A DNA stretch of 20,495 nucleotides from a virus: the IMG/VR virus record IMGVR_UViG_3300027759_000528, positions 1 through 20,495 of that record, one strand, 5' to 3'. Below the pieces are notes generated by a model that worked only from the letters and a program-made list of their open reading frames with translations, had not been told where the DNA came from and did not search any database. How positions within the stretch are numbered: position 1 is the stretch's first letter; each line of letters starts with the position of its first letter. Below, one piece after another: positions 2,613 through 20,495 of this stretch. Position numbers and translations under genes: made by a program.

Positions 2613-3410
2613 TTAGTAGCTGTCGAGGCAGAGAGAGTGGGTCGGGATGGAAGCGGGAGAACTGAGAGCTTCAGGGGTGATCGGGTACACGACGTCGCCC
2701 ACATGGCCCACCACTTGACGGGTGTCGCACCACAGCTTGAGTCCGGACTTGCGGGCCAGATGGCAGAAGCCGTAGTCCTCGCCCAGCAGTCTGGCCCCTC
2801 CTCCTCCCTCGATGTCGGTGTGCAGGATGTCCTGCATCTCGCGGAAAGTACCGGCCAAGGCCATCCGGGCCAGCTTCCCCTCCGGGGTGTTCGGACCCAC
2901 CAGCCCAATGGGGAATAGCTCGGTCATGGACTTGGTCTTCCCGCTCTCATCCTCGTAGTCGAACCTGCGCTCGGGGAAGAAGTCGACCATGTGCTGCAAG
3001 GCCGACACTGAGGTGGACAGCATGCCCGTGCCGACGAAGTCGCACTGGAGCAGTCCGTCCTCACGGACCTCGGCACCGGGCGTCTTCACGATCAGCCACG
3101 AGACCGGCCCACTCTTCTTCTTCACGTAGGGCGCAGCCACAATGTCCTCGTCACGGGACACCAAGGCCACCAACTGGGACGGGTTCCAGAACTGGTCCTT
3201 GTCGATCTGGACCAGCTTCCAGTAGCCCTGCTCAATGGCCGAGGCTGCCGCGATGTTGCGGGAAATGCTGATGGCCGAGTTGCCCGACTCCATCACGAAC
3301 TCAAACGAGTAGTCGGGATGGTCCATCCGCATCATCTGATCGTAGGACGAGAACCAGTAGTAAGGGACTCCACCTTTGGCGGAGCAGGAGACGAGGACAC
3401 GTTTTTTCAT
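2613..3410 (-). CDS. Putative GT-A-type glycosyltransferase
   Basis: The protein has 265 residues. The N-terminus MKKRVLVSCSAKGG is a beta-strand entry, followed by SRNIAAASAI (about 50-59) and a DxD-like metal/nucleotide-sugar motif in LVQIDKDQFW (DKD at about 70-72). CDFVGTGMLSTS (about 123-134), LLGEDYGFC (about 208-216) and a W-x-DTR-x2-VGHVG segment near 227-238 complete the pattern seen in phage GT2-like transferases, in which an (E)D acts near the C-terminal half. The predicted role is transfer of a sugar from a nucleotide-sugar donor; donor and acceptor are unknown. It is cytosolic, with no membrane segment. The start codon overlaps the upstream stop as ATGA (3407-3410). Co-occurrence with a methyltransferase in the same operon suggests glycan modification and methylation of one target, which is inference. 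Confidence 0.7.
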   Translation of the reverse strand: MKKRVLVSCSAKGGVPYYWFSSYDQMMRMDHPDYSFEFVMESGNSAISISRNIAAASAIEQGYWKLVQIDKDQFWNPSQLVALVSRDEDIVAAPYVKKKSGPVSWLIVKTPGAEVREDGLLQCDFVGTGMLSTSVSALQHMVDFFPERRFDYEDESGKTKSMTELFPIGLVGPNTPEGKLARMALAGTFREMQDILHTDIEGGGGARLLGEDYGFCHLARKSGLKLWCDTRQVVGHVGDVVYPITPEALSSPASIPTHSLCLDSY

Positions 3411-3915: not shown

Positions 3916-4175
3916 GGTTGGATATGTTGGTGGGTGACCCAGCGGTGGGAAAGAACCTCACCGTTTTTCCGGGCATCATTCAAAAGATCTTCCCCCATAA
4001 TCTCAATGACCAGCATGGGGTCCATGTGGGGATGGATGAGACCAGCACACACCTGTTCAGTGTTGCCCGAGGCGTTGAGCCGGATCTGGGAGGGGTCTGA
4101 AACACCGCTTTCGATCACTCGCTCGGTGATGTCCCCGGCGTAGGTCACGATTAACTGCAACGTCTGGCAATTCAT
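3912..4175 (-). CDS. Hypothetical small protein in the reverse cassette
   Basis: The protein has 87 residues, beginning MNCQTLQLIVTYAGDITERV. Two alternating hydrophobic segments (residues 5-15 and about 50-58, PMLVIEIMG) suggest a small alpha/beta or beta-sandwich fold. No membrane segment, signal peptide or known motif is visible. It is placed between the methyltransferase and the DUF7352-like gene with ATGA overlaps on both sides (4172-4175 and 3912-3915), which is the main evidence that it is real. The family is not recognised. Confidence 0.65.
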   Translation of the reverse strand: MNCQTLQLIVTYAGDITERVIESGVSDPSQIRLNASGNTEQVCAGLIHPHMDPMLVIEIMGEDLLNDARKNGEVLSHRWVTHQHIQP

Positions 4176-4819
4176 GGCTTGGTCAGCAGACCGAAGGTGT
4201 TGTTGTCGACAGCTTCAAAGCTGCTCCACAGACCTTGCTCGGATACGAACCGCAGCATGGCCGCGTACACGTCAGGATAGGTTGTCAGGTCATCGACCAG
4301 CATCACCCCACCCTTGCGCAGCAACGGCCAGTAGTCGCAGATGTCCTGATAGGCTGCCCGAAAAGTGTGCGAGGCGTCGACGTAGATGATGTCAGCCACC
4401 ACCTCCGCAGCACCCAGCAGGATGGCCCCTTCGGCAGAGGTGTTGACGATGGGCACCACCCGGTCTTGCAGGCCACGGGACTTCATGTTCGTCAGGAACT
4501 GCCAGTAGGTCATGGGATGACCGTTCTGGCGGAGGATGGTGTACGTCTGGGAGTTGTTCAGGACTGCCTCCGCAGACTCCAGCCAAGTGTCGACGCAGTA
4601 GAGTTTCCCCTCCGCCCCCATGGCCCCGGCCCAACGCACTGCCGATCCGCCTTTGTGCGAGCCGACCTCAATGACCACCTTGGCCTTCAACTTCCCGACG
4701 AGATCATCAAAGACCGGCGAGAGCGCGGAGGGGAAAGTCTGGCCGTCGAACGGCAGCTTCAGATCTTCAACGCGGTCGTAGACGGAGGCGTCGGGCAAGA
4801 TATGTTTTACGGAGGACAT
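4172..4819 (-). CDS. Class I SAM-dependent methyltransferase (Methyltransf_24-like)
   Basis: The protein has 215 residues. Motif I (VVIEVGSHKGGSAV, about 48-61) is the glycine-rich SAM-binding loop. CVDTW (about 75-79) supplies the acidic residue expected at the end of strand 2. IIYVDASHTFRAAYQDI (about 144-160) and LLRKGGVMLVDDL (about 166-178) are the remaining core strands. The YVDASH-then-helix layout is typical of methyltransferase family 24, which often acts on small molecules or sugars; the acceptor here is unknown. No DNA-methylase catalytic motif such as DPPY or a PCQ loop is present, so DNA modification is not supported. It ends in an ATGA overlap with the next gene. Its start lies inside the RHH gene in another frame. 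Confidence 0.85.
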   Translation of the reverse strand: MSSVKHILPDASVYDRVEDLKLPFDGQTFPSALSPVFDDLVGKLKAKVVIEVGSHKGGSAVRWAGAMGAEGKLYCVDTWLESAEAVLNNSQTYTILRQNGHPMTYWQFLTNMKSRGLQDRVVPIVNTSAEGAILLGAAEVVADIIYVDASHTFRAAYQDICDYWPLLRKGGVMLVDDLTTYPDVYAAMLRFVSEQGLWSSFEAVDNNTFGLLTKP

Positions 4820-14610: not shown

Positions 14611-15567
14611 ATGCTCTCCAATCACCCGTCTGTTCTGGGTAGCGGTGGCGGGACCGCCTACAACACCATCGGAGGCATCGGCCTCTTTGCCGACGGCACC
14701 GCCGCCGCGCCGAGCATTAGTTTTGCGGCGGATACGGACACGGGGTTTTATCGTTCGTCATCGGGAAATGTTCGTTTTTCTTCGAACGGTGTCGATGCGT
14801 TACAGATGTCCAGCACTGGAACGACGTTTATTCCCGGCGGGATTAACGCGGGATACATTAGCAACGTTGGCGCGGGCGGTGGTCTTGCTTTGTTTGCGCT
14901 CGGCACCAACCAAAACATCACGCTGACGCCGAGCGGGACGGGGCAAACCACTCTTGTGTCTGGAAATCTGGTTCTCTCGGCGGTCGCCGGAATCGGCATC
15001 GGCGGAACGACCTACGCTAACGGAGATTTTCAAATTGGATACAACGGTTTAGGCCTTTATATCAACACACTCGCCGCGAGTCGTTTTATCTCCTTCAACG
15101 TTAATTCAGTTGAAAAAGCTAGGTTTACAGCAACCGACGGACGTTTTCTCCTCGGCACCACCACCGACTACGGCGCACTCCTGCAACTTGGCGGAGCAGG
15201 CACCACGACCGCAGCAACCAACGGAATTGTGTTCTCCACTGACACATCCATTCACCGCAATTCCGCAGGACTTCTTAGATTCGGCGGCACGCAGACTACT
15301 GCTGCCCTAAATATGGGAACTGCTGGTTACGTTAGCCTTGCAAATGTTTCTGGAGGCAGTTGTGAGGTCAGGCTTTTAAGCGCCGGTTCCATTGACCTTG
15401 TATCCAACGGCACCACCGCCCTTACCCTCGACACGTCGCAGCGAACGATTCTTTCGGGCGCGCTTCGCCTCGCGAACGCCTACGTCGCCGGCGCTGTTGT
15501 CGGGACCGGATACGTCACAATCCAAGATTCCACCGGGACCACGTATCGCGTTCCCGTCCTCGTCTAA
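14611..15567 (+). CDS. Tail-fibre-like protein
   Basis: The protein has 318 residues. Near the N-terminus PSISFAADTDTGFYR (34-48) is the familiar phage-fibre unit (Phe-Ala-x-Asp-x-Asp-Thr-Gly). Several Gly/Ser/Thr-rich beta repeats follow. No chaperone-type C-terminal peptidase domain is obvious. It probably forms a trimeric adsorption appendage. Codon choice differs from its neighbours: Phe is often TTT and Arg CGT, and G/C in third positions is weaker than in flanking genes. This suggests recent exchange of the module. The start ATG follows TAAC. Confidence 0.75.
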   Translation: MLSNHPSVLGSGGGTAYNTIGGIGLFADGTAAAPSISFAADTDTGFYRSSSGNVRFSSNGVDALQMSSTGTTFIPGGINAGYISNVGAGGGLALFALGTNQNITLTPSGTGQTTLVSGNLVLSAVAGIGIGGTTYANGDFQIGYNGLGLYINTLAASRFISFNVNSVEKARFTATDGRFLLGTTTDYGALLQLGGAGTTTAATNGIVFSTDTSIHRNSAGLLRFGGTQTTAALNMGTAGYVSLANVSGGSCEVRLLSAGSIDLVSNGTTALTLDTSQRTILSGALRLANAYVAGAVVGTGYVTIQDSTGTTYRVPVLV

Positions 15568-16083: not shown

Positions 16084-18651
16084 ATGAACCGCTATCGCTC
16101 CTATGGACAGGCCGACGATCCCCCTCTCATCGAGGGGGATCGTTCGCTCATAGGGTCTAACGACTGGGACGCACCGGAGAACATCGGTCCCGGCCAAGTC
16201 CAGTCAGCGGTCAACATGGACTTCACCACGCAGGACGCCGTCACCCGTGGCGGGTTTGTCTGCCTCCCCAGCTTGGGTGCGGCTCCGTTCGACAGTGCTT
16301 GGATCTCGCAATCAGCTCAGAATGGTTATTGGCAATCCGTGGCCTACGGCAACGGCACCTTTGTAGCGGTAGAGCCACTGGGAACTCGGGTGATGTCCTC
16401 GCCCGACGGGAGCACTTGGACCGCCCGCACTCCCGCTACTACAAACTTTTGGTTTTCGGTCACCTTTGGCGAAGGTCTTTTTGTTGCGGTATCTACCTCA
16501 GGTGTTGGCGACCGGGTGATGACTTCGCCCGACGGTATCACATGGACGAGCCGAGTCTCTGCCGCAGACAGTAGCTGGATCGCGGTGACCTATGGCGCAG
16601 GGCGTTTCGTTGCAGTGGCTCAAGGTGGGGCTGCGCGGTCGATGTATTCGACTGACGGCATTACATGGGCATCCAGTACGTCTTTGGCATTTTCCCTCTG
16701 GACAGACGTCACTTACGGGAACGGACTTTTTGTCGCTGTCGGCGGAAGTGGCGGGAATGGGGTGGCGGCAACTTCGAACGACGGCATCACATGGACTTCG
16801 CGAACTGCCGCCGCATCGAACTGGCAGAGTGTCGCCTACGGAGATGGCATATTCGTGGCCGTGGGTGACTTTGGGAGTCAGCGGGCAATGTCCTCGCCCG
16901 ACGGCATTACATGGACCGCCCGCACCACGCCCGACAATGACGGATATAAATCGGTGACCTTCGGGTACGACCGGTTCGTGGCAGTTTCGCTGGCTTCAAG
17001 CGGATACGGCGTGATGACCTCCTACAATGGCACCGACTGGCAGTCACGGGTCGGGGCTGCCGGTCCAACATGGGCTGCGGTCACTTACGGGAACGGGCTT
17101 TTCGTCGCAGTCTCCGATGACTCCGGTGCTCCGGGCACGCAAGTGATGACCTCTTACGCCGTCACGGTCTGGGCCTCAGGGGTCTACTCCGACCAGACGG
17201 ACCCGGGCTCTCAGTGGATCATGCTGGTGGGCAATACCTCGGTGGGATTCTACGCCAACGGCAGAGCCCCCCACACCATCTCACTGGGCTCCTTCACGGT
17301 CTCAAACCAGTCTACCATCGTCCAGTGCAACAATCTCGTCTACCTGTTCCGTGGCCCGGATGAGGCACCGATCTACTGGAACGGGGATTGGAACACGACG
17401 TTTGTCGCCGTCCCCACCCCGACTCCGTTGCCCGGATTCTCAAATATCCCCAACAGCAGTCAGGCCACCTACTATCAAGACCGGTTGTGGGTGATCGACG
17501 GGAAGGACGAAGTCGCGGCGTCGGACACGCTGGACTTCAACACCTACGACGACCTCGCCAACAACTTCAACCTGAACAAGGGGTCGTCCGACTATCTGGT
17601 AAGGACGTATCCGTTTGGAGAGAACAGCCTTCTCGTCTTCAAGAACAAGTCCATCTTGGTCCTGCAAAACGTGCAAGGGGCTTTGGACGATGTAACCGTT
17701 ACGGAGATAACGCGGCAGGTCGGGTGCATCGGCATCAACTCAGTGGTCTCGGTCGGACCCGACGTGGTCTACATGAGCGACCGCAACATCAACCTCATCA
17801 CGCTGACCGCCACCAACAATTCGGTCCAGCACAAGACCCTGCCTCTTTCGCGCAACATCTCCAGCCTCCTCAAGCGGGTGAATTGGGACTACGGCTACAA
17901 GGTGAGCATGGCCTATTTCGACAACAAGCTGTTCGTGGCAGTCCCCCTCGATAATGCGGTCTTCTGCAACACCGTCCTTGTCTACAATTTCGTCACCGAG
18001 AACTGGTTTGGGGAATGGAATTTTGCGTCCTCCTTCTCCATGGGTATTCAAGGCTGGGCCGTCGCGAACTATCTCGGGCCGCAACGACTGCACGCCATCA
18101 CTGAGGATGGGCAGATCTTTGTGACCGGCGAGGGGCAGAACGACATCAGCGGGACGAATGTGGCAGACATCGCCACTTCGCTGACCTCCCGGGCCTACAA
18201 CTTTGAGGGCAACAACGCCACCCAACGACGCATGTGGGTCGACCTTGGCACCAATCGCCCGGATTTCAGCGTCACCACCTACACCGATGGAGCCTCGGAA
18301 AGCTCCACCATTCTGACCGACCAGACCTATACCCGGGCAGAGAGCTGGTTGTTCAACGACTCGACCTACGACCAGACCAACGTCAACGACGACTTCAACC
18401 GGGCCTACCGGAAGGACTACTCCACTGGCCCCTTGGCCGCAGGGTCGACGCCGGGATTGCCCATCACCGGACTGCAATGCGGTACGGGCTTCCAGCCGGA
18501 GATGACGCAGGACTATCGGTTCCCCATTATCACCCGGCGACAGGGGAGACTCTCATGGCTCAACATCACCAACACCACGGGGATCATTAAAATTCGCGGG
18601 ATCGGCTTTGAGAATCACACTGGCCAACGGAGCAGTCTCGTCCAAGTCTAA
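16084..18651 (+). CDS. Tail hub/stopper-like protein with inserted seven-blade beta-propeller
   Basis: The protein has 855 residues. The N-terminal 66 residues and the C-terminal part (about 366-855; for example RLSWLNITNTTGIIKIRGIG) resemble podovirus hub or stopper proteins that complete the portal-tail channel. Residues about 83-365 form seven repeats of about 41 residues: W-x-S-V-x-Y-G-x-G-x-F-V-A-V ... S-x-D-G-x-T-W, starting near 83, 123, 165, 206, 247, 288 and 330. This pattern fits a seven-blade beta-propeller (sialidase/YCF48-like). The first blade and the last are somewhat degenerate. The insertion probably sits on the outer surface. A perfect 12-bp hairpin lies in the first codons (16115-16143). 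No catalytic residues are identified, so binding is more likely than enzymatic activity. Confidence 0.7.
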   Translation: MNRYRSYGQADDPPLIEGDRSLIGSNDWDAPENIGPGQVQSAVNMDFTTQDAVTRGGFVCLPSLGAAPFDSAWISQSAQNGYWQSVAYGNGTFVAVEPLGTRVMSSPDGSTWTARTPATTNFWFSVTFGEGLFVAVSTSGVGDRVMTSPDGITWTSRVSAADSSWIAVTYGAGRFVAVAQGGAARSMYSTDGITWASSTSLAFSLWTDVTYGNGLFVAVGGSGGNGVAATSNDGITWTSRTAAASNWQSVAYGDGIFVAVGDFGSQRAMSSPDGITWTARTTPDNDGYKSVTFGYDRFVAVSLASSGYGVMTSYNGTDWQSRVGAAGPTWAAVTYGNGLFVAVSDDSGAPGTQVMTSYAVTVWASGVYSDQTDPGSQWIMLVGNTSVGFYANGRAPHTISLGSFTVSNQSTIVQCNNLVYLFRGPDEAPIYWNGDWNTTFVAVPTPTPLPGFSNIPNSSQATYYQDRLWVIDGKDEVAASDTLDFNTYDDLANNFNLNKGSSDYLVRTYPFGENSLLVFKNKSILVLQNVQGALDDVTVTEITRQVGCIGINSVVSVGPDVVYMSDRNINLITLTATNNSVQHKTLPLSRNISSLLKRVNWDYGYKVSMAYFDNKLFVAVPLDNAVFCNTVLVYNFVTENWFGEWNFASSFSMGIQGWAVANYLGPQRLHAITEDGQIFVTGEGQNDISGTNVADIATSLTSRAYNFEGNNATQRRMWVDLGTNRPDFSVTTYTDGASESSTILTDQTYTRAESWLFNDSTYDQTNVNDDFNRAYRKDYSTGPLAAGSTPGLPITGLQCGTGFQPEMTQDYRFPIITRRQGRLSWLNITNTTGIIKIRGIGFENHTGQRSSLVQV
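16115..16143. other. Perfect 12-bp stem-loop in the hub gene's first codons
   Basis: ACGATCCCCCTC (16115-16126) and GAGGGGGATCGT (16132-16143) are exact reverse complements with a 5-nt loop TCATC. It begins 31 nt after the ATG. There is no T-run after it, so termination is unlikely; a translational brake or mRNA-processing structure is possible. Confidence 0.75.
16330..17178 (+). repeat. Seven-repeat propeller region
   Basis: Seven protein repeats of about 41 residues lie at about residues 83-365 of the hub gene. DNA copies differ at synonymous positions (for example TTTGTAGCGGTA versus TTCGTGGCAGTT for FVAV), so amplification is not recent or has been diversified. Confidence 0.75.
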
Positions 18652-18662
18652 CACTTACCACC

Positions 18663-19361
18663 ATGCCATCTGTATCACCCGGCTACACCTTCACGGGGAC
18701 CACCGACCCGATCACCTTCACCAAGCTCAACCTGTTGAGCACGCCCTCCGTGACACTTGGGAACAACGAGGTGATTGCGACGACCATTGCGGATGGCTCG
18801 ATCATCACCAGCAAACTTGCGGACCTCGCGGTTACCACCGCCAAGATCAACGACCTCGCGGTTACCACTGCCAAGATCAACGACCTTGGAGTGACGACGG
18901 GCAAGCTCGCGAATAATGCAGTGACTCTTGCCAAAGTTGTCGCAGCGGCGGGCAACAACACGTTCCTTGCTCGTTCTACTGCCGGTGCTGGCAACTTCGA
19001 AGCTGTGGATACGACGGTCACCGGTCTGGGCTTTTACACGGGTGCCGGGGGCACTGTAACTCAAGCGACCAGCAAGGCTACTGCGTTCACTTTGAACGCT
19101 ATGTGTGGTCAGATCACCACTGCCGCAGATTCATTGGGCCATGCAACCGTCGTTTCAGCTGTTTGGACTAACAGTAAGATTGCCGCTACAGATGTAGTGA
19201 TTATCAATCACAAGTCAGGCGGCACTATCGGAGCTTACGTGTTCAATGTTTCCTGCGGTGCAGGCGCTGCGACATTGTACATCACAAACAATCAAACCGC
19301 TGGCTCCCTTTCTGAGGCATTGGTCCTTAGTTTCGCAGTCATCAAGGGCGTCACTTCCTAA
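18663..19361 (+). CDS. Tail-fibre protein with short-repeat stalk and C-terminal knob
   Basis: The protein has 232 residues. The N-terminal region is followed by five 10-residue repeats (44-93: DGSIITSKLA, DLAVTTAKIN, DLAVTTAKIN, DLGVTTGKLA, NNAVTLAKVV), a stalk typical of trimeric fibres. After a linker (FLARSTAGAGNFEAV), the knob from about 122 (GTVTQATSKATAFTLN ... WTNSKIAATDVVII ... LSFAVIKGVTS) has the layout of the widespread phage fibre C-terminal receptor-binding domain. It therefore probably contacts the host surface. The ATG is preceded by ACTTACCACC. The next gene begins one base after its stop. Confidence 0.8.
   Translation: MPSVSPGYTFTGTTDPITFTKLNLLSTPSVTLGNNEVIATTIADGSIITSKLADLAVTTAKINDLAVTTAKINDLGVTTGKLANNAVTLAKVVAAAGNNTFLARSTAGAGNFEAVDTTVTGLGFYTGAGGTVTQATSKATAFTLNAMCGQITTAADSLGHATVVSAVWTNSKIAATDVVIINHKSGGTIGAYVFNVSCGAGAATLYITNNQTAGSLSEALVLSFAVIKGVTS
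18792..18941 (+). repeat. 30-bp tandem repeats encoding the fibre stalk
   Basis: Five in-frame 30-bp units lie at 18792-18941. The copies at 18822 and 18852 differ by a single base; flanking units are more divergent. They encode the DLAVTTAKIN-type stalk. Confidence 0.85.
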
Positions 19362-19362
19362 C

Positions 19363-20495
19363 ATGCCCAACTGGCAAAAATACTACGCAGGAGAGATCCT
19401 CGACCCCTACGAGGAGGACGAAAAAGAGCGTCTGGCAGCTATCGAGGAAGAGAAAGCACGCCTGCTGGAAGATAAACGTCTGGCAGATATCGAGGAAGAG
19501 AAAGCACGTCTGGCAAAATCAAAAGAAGCGGAGGGTGACGGCACCATCGTAATGGACCCTTTCTTCGTACCCTTAACACGTCTCGGAGGCGGTGATGCAG
19601 GCAGCGGTGCAGGCAGCGGTGCAGGCGAGGGCGATGGCGATGGCGAGGGTGATGGCGGCAGCTCAGGTCCAAACATCTTCTCTCCACCGAATGCTGTCAC
19701 CATCGGAAACCCGAGCTTGATCATCCCGATCAACAAAGACCCTAACGTTGTAGGAACTGCGGAGTTCGAAGCCCGTGAAAGAGCCGAATACGAAGCGAGA
19801 GAAAAAGCTGCTGCTGATGCAAAGGCGGAGAAGGAGATTGCCGATATGGTCGCTAAGGGGAGACCGCCCCCCATTACAATCGGCAACCCCATCGACGTCA
19901 TAGGCTCTGCTGCCACAGGAATAGGGCAAATCGTCAGCGATCCTATAACCGGTGCCCGCAACGTCATCACGAATATCGGAGAGGGCATCTTCGGTACGGG
20001 AAATGGCAACATCTCCATCACTCCTCTCCCGGTTGATCCGATCACTGGATTGATCATTACCGGAGCCGTAGCCGCCAATGCGACAGCGGCAACACGAGCT
20101 AGGGACGCAGCCGAAGCAGCAAAGGCAGCGGGGGCATCGCCCGAAGTACAGGCCCAGCTGGATGCCGAAGCCGCAGCCGCAGCCGCAGCCGCAGCTGCCC
20201 AAACCCAGACGCCGAGCACCGTCCCATTGGGCATATTGACTGGTGGGGCTCCCAATTCCGGACCCCCTAAACCCGGGGACATGGGGCCATTCGACCAGAG
20301 GACTCCAGAGCAAAGAGCGGCAGACGCGGCAGCCGCAGCCCAGACGCCGAACTCCGGCCCATTGGTCATCTCGACGGAGACTCCCAATTCCGGACCTCCT
20401 AAACCCGGGGACATGGGGCCATTCGACCAGAGGACTCCGGAGCAAAAAGCAGAGGATGCCGCAAAGGCAGTCGCAACTCAGACGCCGAACTCCGG
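19363..20495 (+). CDS. Repetitive Ala/Gly-rich protein, partial (right end missing)
   Basis: The frame is open from ATG 19363 (leader TAAC, one base after the fibre stop) to the window end with no stop. At least 377 residues are visible. Order: a charged helix with a 16-residue duplication (RLAAIEEEKARL and RLADIEEEKARL, about 23-54), an acidic Gly-rich linker (GSGAGSGAGEGDGDGEGDGG), a charged region, Gly/Ile-rich hydrophobic stretches (about residues 185-235), an Ala-rich helix, then tandem repeats of 45 and 46 residues containing GPPKPGDMGPFDQRTPEQ. The last repeat is cut. Long hydrophobic and Ala-rich stretches could suit a tail or ejection protein, but I do not recognise the family. A long antisense frame here is shadow. 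Confidence 0.75.
   Translation, partial: MPNWQKYYAGEILDPYEEDEKERLAAIEEEKARLLEDKRLADIEEEKARLAKSKEAEGDGTIVMDPFFVPLTRLGGGDAGSGAGSGAGEGDGDGEGDGGSSGPNIFSPPNAVTIGNPSLIIPINKDPNVVGTAEFEARERAEYEAREKAAADAKAEKEIADMVAKGRPPPITIGNPIDVIGSAATGIGQIVSDPITGARNVITNIGEGIFGTGNGNISITPLPVDPITGLIITGAVAANATAATRARDAAEAAKAAGASPEVQAQLDAEAAAAAAAAAAQTQTPSTVPLGILTGGAPNSGPPKPGDMGPFDQRTPEQRAADAAAAAQTPNSGPLVISTETPNSGPPKPGDMGPFDQRTPEQKAEDAAKAVATQTPNS
19429..19524 (+). repeat. 48-bp tandem duplication at the start of the last gene
   Basis: Two in-frame 48-bp (16-codon) copies begin CGTCTGGCA at 19429 and 19477 and encode RLA(A/D)IEEEKARL units. The duplication extends the N-terminal charged helix. Confidence 0.75.
20206..20495 (+). 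repeat. 45/46-residue tandem repeats reaching the window edge
   Basis: Units start with CAGACGCCGA at 20206, 20341 and 20479, giving periods of 135 and 138 bp (45 and 46 codons). The third unit is cut after 17 bases. Each complete unit encodes a TPNSGPPKPGDMGPF-type stretch (APNSGPP in the first) followed by a short Ala-rich helix. Confidence 0.85.

Follow-up and report, generated by a model that had tools for sequence, protein, structure and literature searches.

Does the tail hub protein of an uncultured podovirus carry a complete β-propeller as an inserted domain, and what might such a propeller contribute to the virion? The question is raised by the window analyzed here, a 20,495-nucleotide stretch of viral DNA (IMG/VR record IMGVR_UViG_3300027759_000528), which encodes a protein of 855 amino acids on the plus strand (16084..18651, stop codon in range). 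A sequence-only reading of this locus had proposed that seven repeats at 16330–17178 form a seven-bladed propeller inserted in a tail hub protein and that the insertion could add an adhesive or enzymatic surface at the tail base.

The repeats were examined first at the level of their motifs. W..V.YG.G.FVAV is present in all seven copies, beginning at aa. 83, 123, 165, 206, 247, 288 and 330 (nt 16330, 16450, 16576, 16699, 16822, 16945 and 17071) with a spacing of 40–42 amino acids, and the seven repeats span aa. 83–358. The second motif, S.DG..W, is found in 6/7 copies (aa. 106, 148, 189, 231, 271 and 313), the last being SYNGTDW. When the residues of the protein were shuffled 20,000 times, W..V.YG.G.FVAV was not produced once, and S.DG..W had a mean of 0.07 occurrences and a maximum of two. 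The count and coordinates of the repeats were read correctly from the sequence. All repeats lie on the plus strand and are visible at the DNA level too: repeat 1 (16330..16449; WQSVAYGNGTFVAV ... SPDGSTW), repeat 2 (16450..16575; WFSVTFGEGLFVAV ... SPDGITW), repeat 3 (16576..16698; WIAVTYGAGRFVAV ... STDGITW), repeat 4 (16699..16821; WTDVTYGNGLFVAV ... SNDGITW), repeat 5 (16822..16944; WQSVAYGDGIFVAV ... SPDGITW), the degenerate repeat 6 (16945..17070; YKSVTFGYDRFVAV ... SYNGTDW) and repeat 7 (17071..17157; WAAVTYGNGLFVAV).

An initial AlphaFold2 calculation with 16 close sequences was confident over the propeller and poor elsewhere; when distant hubs were added to the alignment, the core was modeled too. 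The final calculation (70 sequences including 43 distant hubs) had a mean pLDDT of 80.3 and a pTM of 0.75, with low confidence chiefly at the N-terminus and over aa. 748–805. Within the insert, pLDDT is mostly 80–96 and 28 strands are modeled: aa. 74–76, then six blocks of four, then three ending at aa. 358, the shortest strand being only two residues in length (aa. 195–196). Repeat 7 supplies three strands only and aa. 74–76 supply the fourth. According to the model, the repeats form a closed seven-bladed propeller in which an N-terminal strand completes the last blade ("1+3 Velcro"); closure of the ring is judged from the number of strands, the model confidence and the Foldseek matches, not from coordinates. 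Foldseek matched single-propeller viral models, namely A0A6J5SXG5 (299 aa, target TM 0.90, RMSD 1.8) and M1PQ47 (315 aa, target TM 0.87). The seven blades that had been proposed are thus supported by the prediction, and the proposed interval was close to the domain; better boundaries are aa. 74–358 (16303..17157). The EPTP Pfam repeat (PF03736) scores above its cut-off in the inserts of three relatives (L056, L057 and L039) and below it in the window protein (15.2 vs 21), and in the preferred explanation the window propeller would be of the EPTP/Asp-box type. Other Pfam profiles that matched the repeats, namely seed maturation, MHC and Influenza PB2, were discounted as artefacts of the repetition.

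The identity of the host protein may be considered in terms of its two flanks, an N-terminal region (aa. 1–64; 16084..16275) and a C-terminal region (aa. 359–855; 17158..18648) that corresponds to the nozzle core. By sequence, the window protein returned nothing usable from Pfam, NCBIfam, PHROG or the PDB, including no direct hub-profile match in PHROG or Pfam. A tblastn search with the same protein identified "head closure Hc3" of phage C75C1 (E 2e-16) and, in environmental podoviruses, proteins annotated as "phage stabilization protein". Over aa. 1–69, which include the N-terminal flank, identity to the head-closure protein of C75C1 is 33%, and the C-terminal flank is 26–27% identical to C75C1 Hc3. 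A distant IMG/VR family, reached through C75C1, aligned with the window family over aa. 356–719 by hhalign (E=5.5e-41), and aa. 451–683 share 35% identity with L073, a homologue with an empty insertion site. The P22 gp10/Hc3 family (phrog_578) is matched by 43/43 tested members of this distant family, but not directly by the window protein; to our knowledge, P22 gp10 is without such a propeller insert. Among the best PDB matches of the whole model in Foldseek were the podovirus tails of Pa223 (E 1.3e-18), SU10, A4, VP1 and T7, all at the level of a model and with a target TM of about 0.3–0.6. Since the C75C1 match, the alignment to an Hc3-matching family and the podovirus tail matches agree, the flanks are identified as a podoviral tail hub or nozzle in the position of T7 gp12 and P22 gp10, and the hub-like character that had been ascribed to them is upheld. 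The hub gene lies in a tail module that follows the genes for terminase, portal and capsid. In C75C1 the order is identical and these three genes are related to those of the window, and the window capsid protein matches SU10_MCP. A search of the genome collection returned one locus only, and the hub of MW202524 had no relatives in an IMG/VR scan. Matches of the empty-site family to enterotoxin B chains in the PDB (E 0.13 and up, ~50 residues) were rejected as chance.

Podoviral nozzles such as those of T7 and SU10 have a seven-bladed core propeller of their own (PMC6702177, PMC9509320), and the repeats might be this canonical core with nothing inserted. Homologues that lack the 285 residues contradict this reading, as they keep both flanks and the core: their N-terminal flank is followed by a linker of 32–44 amino acids, whereas in the window protein the insert sits between the flank (aa. 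1–64) and a core that resumes at ~aa. 361. The S.DG..W motif was found in 0/70 distant hubs. It is thus very improbable that the repeats are the core propeller, and the description of the propeller as inserted is borne out. Given this core architecture in T7 and SU10, the window protein probably holds one propeller nested within another.

The site itself varies in content. Measured from "...TR.G" of the N-terminal flank to the strand "[FY]SDP", it is 310 amino acids in the window protein; in 69 distant proteins it is 32–44 amino acids in 28, ~70 in one, 110–129 in 39 and 220 in one. In L099, L102, L138 and others, the site of the propeller is occupied by a domain of ~110 amino acids, possibly E1_FCCH-like, or by the 220-amino acid stretch. 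The E1_FCCH Pfam profile was matched by 18/43 distant-family members and is a candidate for the domain at the site. The hub site appears to be a general insertion site that, depending on the clade, is empty or is occupied by a small domain or a propeller. Among close relatives the site is always filled, with inserts of 288–386 amino acids in 43/43 sequences (window included), although in the most divergent of these (e.g. L046, L054) the propeller repeat is hard to discern by eye.

Comparison of the 43 close-family sequences revealed that the insert does not share the history of its flanks. Over 903 pairs, mean identity is 71% for the N-terminal flank, 32% for the insert and 69% for the C-terminal flank, with shifts close to the junctions (residues 61–80 and 341–360). 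Individual pairs are more striking: L007 and L012 are 100% and 98.8% identical in their N- and C-terminal flanks and 60.5% identical in the insert, while L025 and L028 are 95, 33 and 94% identical in N-terminal flank, insert and C-terminal flank, respectively. For the 45 close pairs whose C-terminal flanks have a dS of less than 0.5, median values of dS in the same three regions are 0.24, 1.20 and 0.34, and dS exceeds twice that of the C-terminal flank for the insert in 33/45 pairs and for the N-terminal flank in only five. A raised dS indicates DNA of a different history, and therefore recombination, as opposed to selection on amino acids. The median dN/dS of the insert (0.26; C-terminal flank, 0.11) is below 1 and gives no direct indication of positive selection. 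Trees of the insert and the C-terminal flank have 6 well-supported splits in common and 38 conflicting split pairs; the insert of L010, for instance, clusters with that of L036, and the flank of L010 with that of L008. The propeller domain is exchanged by recombination between relatives, and rapid swapping of a domain on a conserved anchor is a trait of receptor-binding proteins. A displayed domain, as this one probably is, might also diverge rapidly through the action of a diversity-generating retroelement or some other hypermutation mechanism. The traits of a retroelement target were absent, however: synonymous divergence is strongly raised and rises together with amino acid divergence, the insert and flank trees conflict, and no reverse transcriptase (RVT_1) was found in 15 contigs, many of them fragments. 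Hypermutation is very improbable as the source of the divergence.

Where the substitutions fall on the propeller was assessed using strands taken from the AlphaFold2 model and 11 ortholog groups that are not fully independent of one another. The B–C and D–A loops vary more than the strands in 11/11 groups and more than the A–B and C–D hairpins in 10/11, by 1.5 to 7 times. On the model, the substitutions concentrate on one face of the propeller, the exposure of which is assumed. Part of the contrast could be ordinary relaxation, the A–B and C–D turns being constrained Asp-box-like hairpins. Many propellers with Asp-box-like repeats are glycosidases, and in Asp-box enzymes the Asp-box hairpin lies on the face opposite the ligand site. 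The insert could be an enzyme, e.g. a glycan hydrolase that cuts surface polysaccharide, and a location at the tail base would suit a depolymerase. In sialidase-like enzymes, conserved catalytic charged residues are expected; apart from the Asp-box aspartates, no charged position reaches 80% conservation across the 43 inserts, a result that speaks against a fixed catalytic site. Moreover, the face that varies is the substrate-binding face of such enzymes, and the window protein matches no glycosidase family. An enzymatic role is accordingly improbable. Of the two surfaces that had been suggested for the insertion, the enzymatic one found no positive support, while the adhesive one is strengthened, short of proof, by the exchange of the cassette and the variability of one face.

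The propeller is not confined to hubs. A scan with propeller sequences identified at least 560 confirmed relatives in IMG/VR, and carriers elsewhere match both EPTP (PF03736) and DUF6242 (PF19755). Among the matches listed are four proteins of uncultured phages in which the propeller accompanies an N-terminal λ-like tail-tube domain (L157:4617-5906; 26.5 bits vs a cut-off of 26.1), a tail terminator (L180:854-2353; 55.2 vs 27), a distal-tail RIFT domain (L218:4512-6071; 33.1 vs 24.2) or a collagen-repeat, i.e. collagen-fibre, protein (L188:3630-5864). The propeller appears to be a display module common to many virion proteins, a distribution that fits display or adhesion better than a structural task specific to the hub. 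A propeller with 38% identity to that of the window also occurs on the plus strand of Synechococcus phage B23 (L018:4030-4869), where the record has two hypothetical genes on the minus strand; a gene was possibly missed there.

The genes on either side of the hub vary as well. Upstream, 14611-15567 (+) is tail fibre-like from weak PHROG matches and cannot be aligned between otherwise close relatives. Downstream, 18663-19361 (+) is identified by PHROG as a tail fibre gene (phrog_18251, 3e-29) and contains, at 18822-18886, a tandem repeat with a 30-bp unit. It is mosaic, with 54% identity to L003, which is close by hub, and 76–80% to the more distant L007 and L012. Both genes are exchanged among relatives, apparently independently of the propeller. 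These observations bear on the possibility that the propeller is a docking or stabilizing platform for the tail fibres or the hub hexamer, varying along with exchanged virion partners. Fibre-dock elements are present on the nozzle hubs of T7 and SU10 (PMC6702177, PMC9509320), and the high variability of the upstream fibre-like gene between close relatives would be compatible with a changing partner. On the other hand, variation in the neighbours does not follow that of the propeller: identity in g15577 is 86% for both L011 and L007, the propellers of which are 62% and 31% identical to that of the window. The module also occurs on proteins with quite different partners. A platform is thus unlikely, though less so than an enzyme.

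Insertion of domains into podoviral nozzles and the use of propellers as adhesins are both known already. T7 gp12 (tail tubular protein B) shares the nozzle position, Foldseek similarity (6r21, 7ey7) and, probably, a core propeller with inserted domains, but its insertion is a nozzle-tip barrel at blade 3 (PMC6702177), whereas the window hub carries a complete second propeller near the start of the chain that is exchanged between relatives. The SU10 nozzle (7z4b, 7z47) likewise has inserted domains in a seven-bladed core, but these are four Ig-like domains between blades 2 and 3 (PMC9509320). Distant hubs have a domain (aa. about 175–270 of L073) in a place that may be comparable to the SU10 Ig-like insertion; this domain is absent from the window hub. 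The muzzle protein gp44 of crAss001 forms a hexameric tail tip with a T7-like ring-joining domain, a seven-bladed propeller and large insertions of variable length that are thought to face the host; these insertions differ in being Ig-like and of a unique "crass fold" instead of a propeller (PMC10172136). Propellers are found on the adsorption devices of phi11 (the receptor-binding protein Gp45), PRD1 (P2) and phiKZ (gp131C). That of phiKZ has seven blades, as in the window, and those of phi11 and PRD1 have five; none of the three is on a podoviral hub (PMC4901313). The nozzle itself may take part in adsorption: in the Vibrio podovirus OWB, TTPB binds a membrane protein of the host on which adsorption depends (PMC7241545), and in an Acinetobacter phage one TTPB substitution broadens the host range (PMC10904470). 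The literature searched, mostly papers available without subscription and outside bioRxiv, yielded no nozzle with a propeller inserted in it, no phage EPTP/DUF6242 propellers and no combination of a hub with a recombining seven-bladed propeller. The impression that this exact arrangement was undescribed therefore stands within that literature.

Taken with the exchange of the cassette, the preferred explanation is that the propeller is a receptor-binding module at the tail tip that is swapped by recombination, which is somewhat better than an even proposition. A podoviral hub, expected to be a hexamer that closes the tail, would have acquired a complete seven-bladed propeller near the start of its chain. 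If the propellers are displayed outward, approximately six per virion would ring the tail tip, and the B–C and D–A loops on one face would engage a variable host-surface structure, probably making a second contact at close range after that of the fibres. Recombination between relatives would then replace the whole propeller and retarget the tip, with a presumed effect on host range. The hub need not be the main determinant of the host, since the neighbouring fibre genes vary too. A broader proposal is more tentative, falling a little short of even: in this uncultured podovirus clade the hub itself, and not the fibres only, may be a receptor-binding protein with its specificity in the propeller cassette, and the cassette may be a general phage display module that recombines between hubs and, in the longer term, onto tail-tube, terminator, distal-tail and fibre proteins. 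The main role ascribed to podoviral hubs is that of a gate for retaining and releasing DNA, the choice of host being left to fibres and spikes. An exchangeable hub propeller would place specificity on the gate, and recognition of the receptor could then be linked directly to its opening. The insertion site and the widely shared propeller module should also help to annotate many hypothetical phage tail genes.

Several other features of the window were recorded. Beyond the downstream fibre gene, a proline/alanine-rich open reading frame (19246-20495, +) runs off the end of the window and has a tandem repeat of ~132 bp at 20202-20495. Tandem repeats are also present at the left end of the contig (20-302 and 582-645), with units of 7–8 bp resembling GACGTGGG, 16 bp and 22 bp (2.9 copies). 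On the minus strand, 2613-3410 appears by eye to be glycosyltransferase-like, with no match in Pfam, and 4172-4819 appears, also by eye, to be a class I methyltransferase-like gene.
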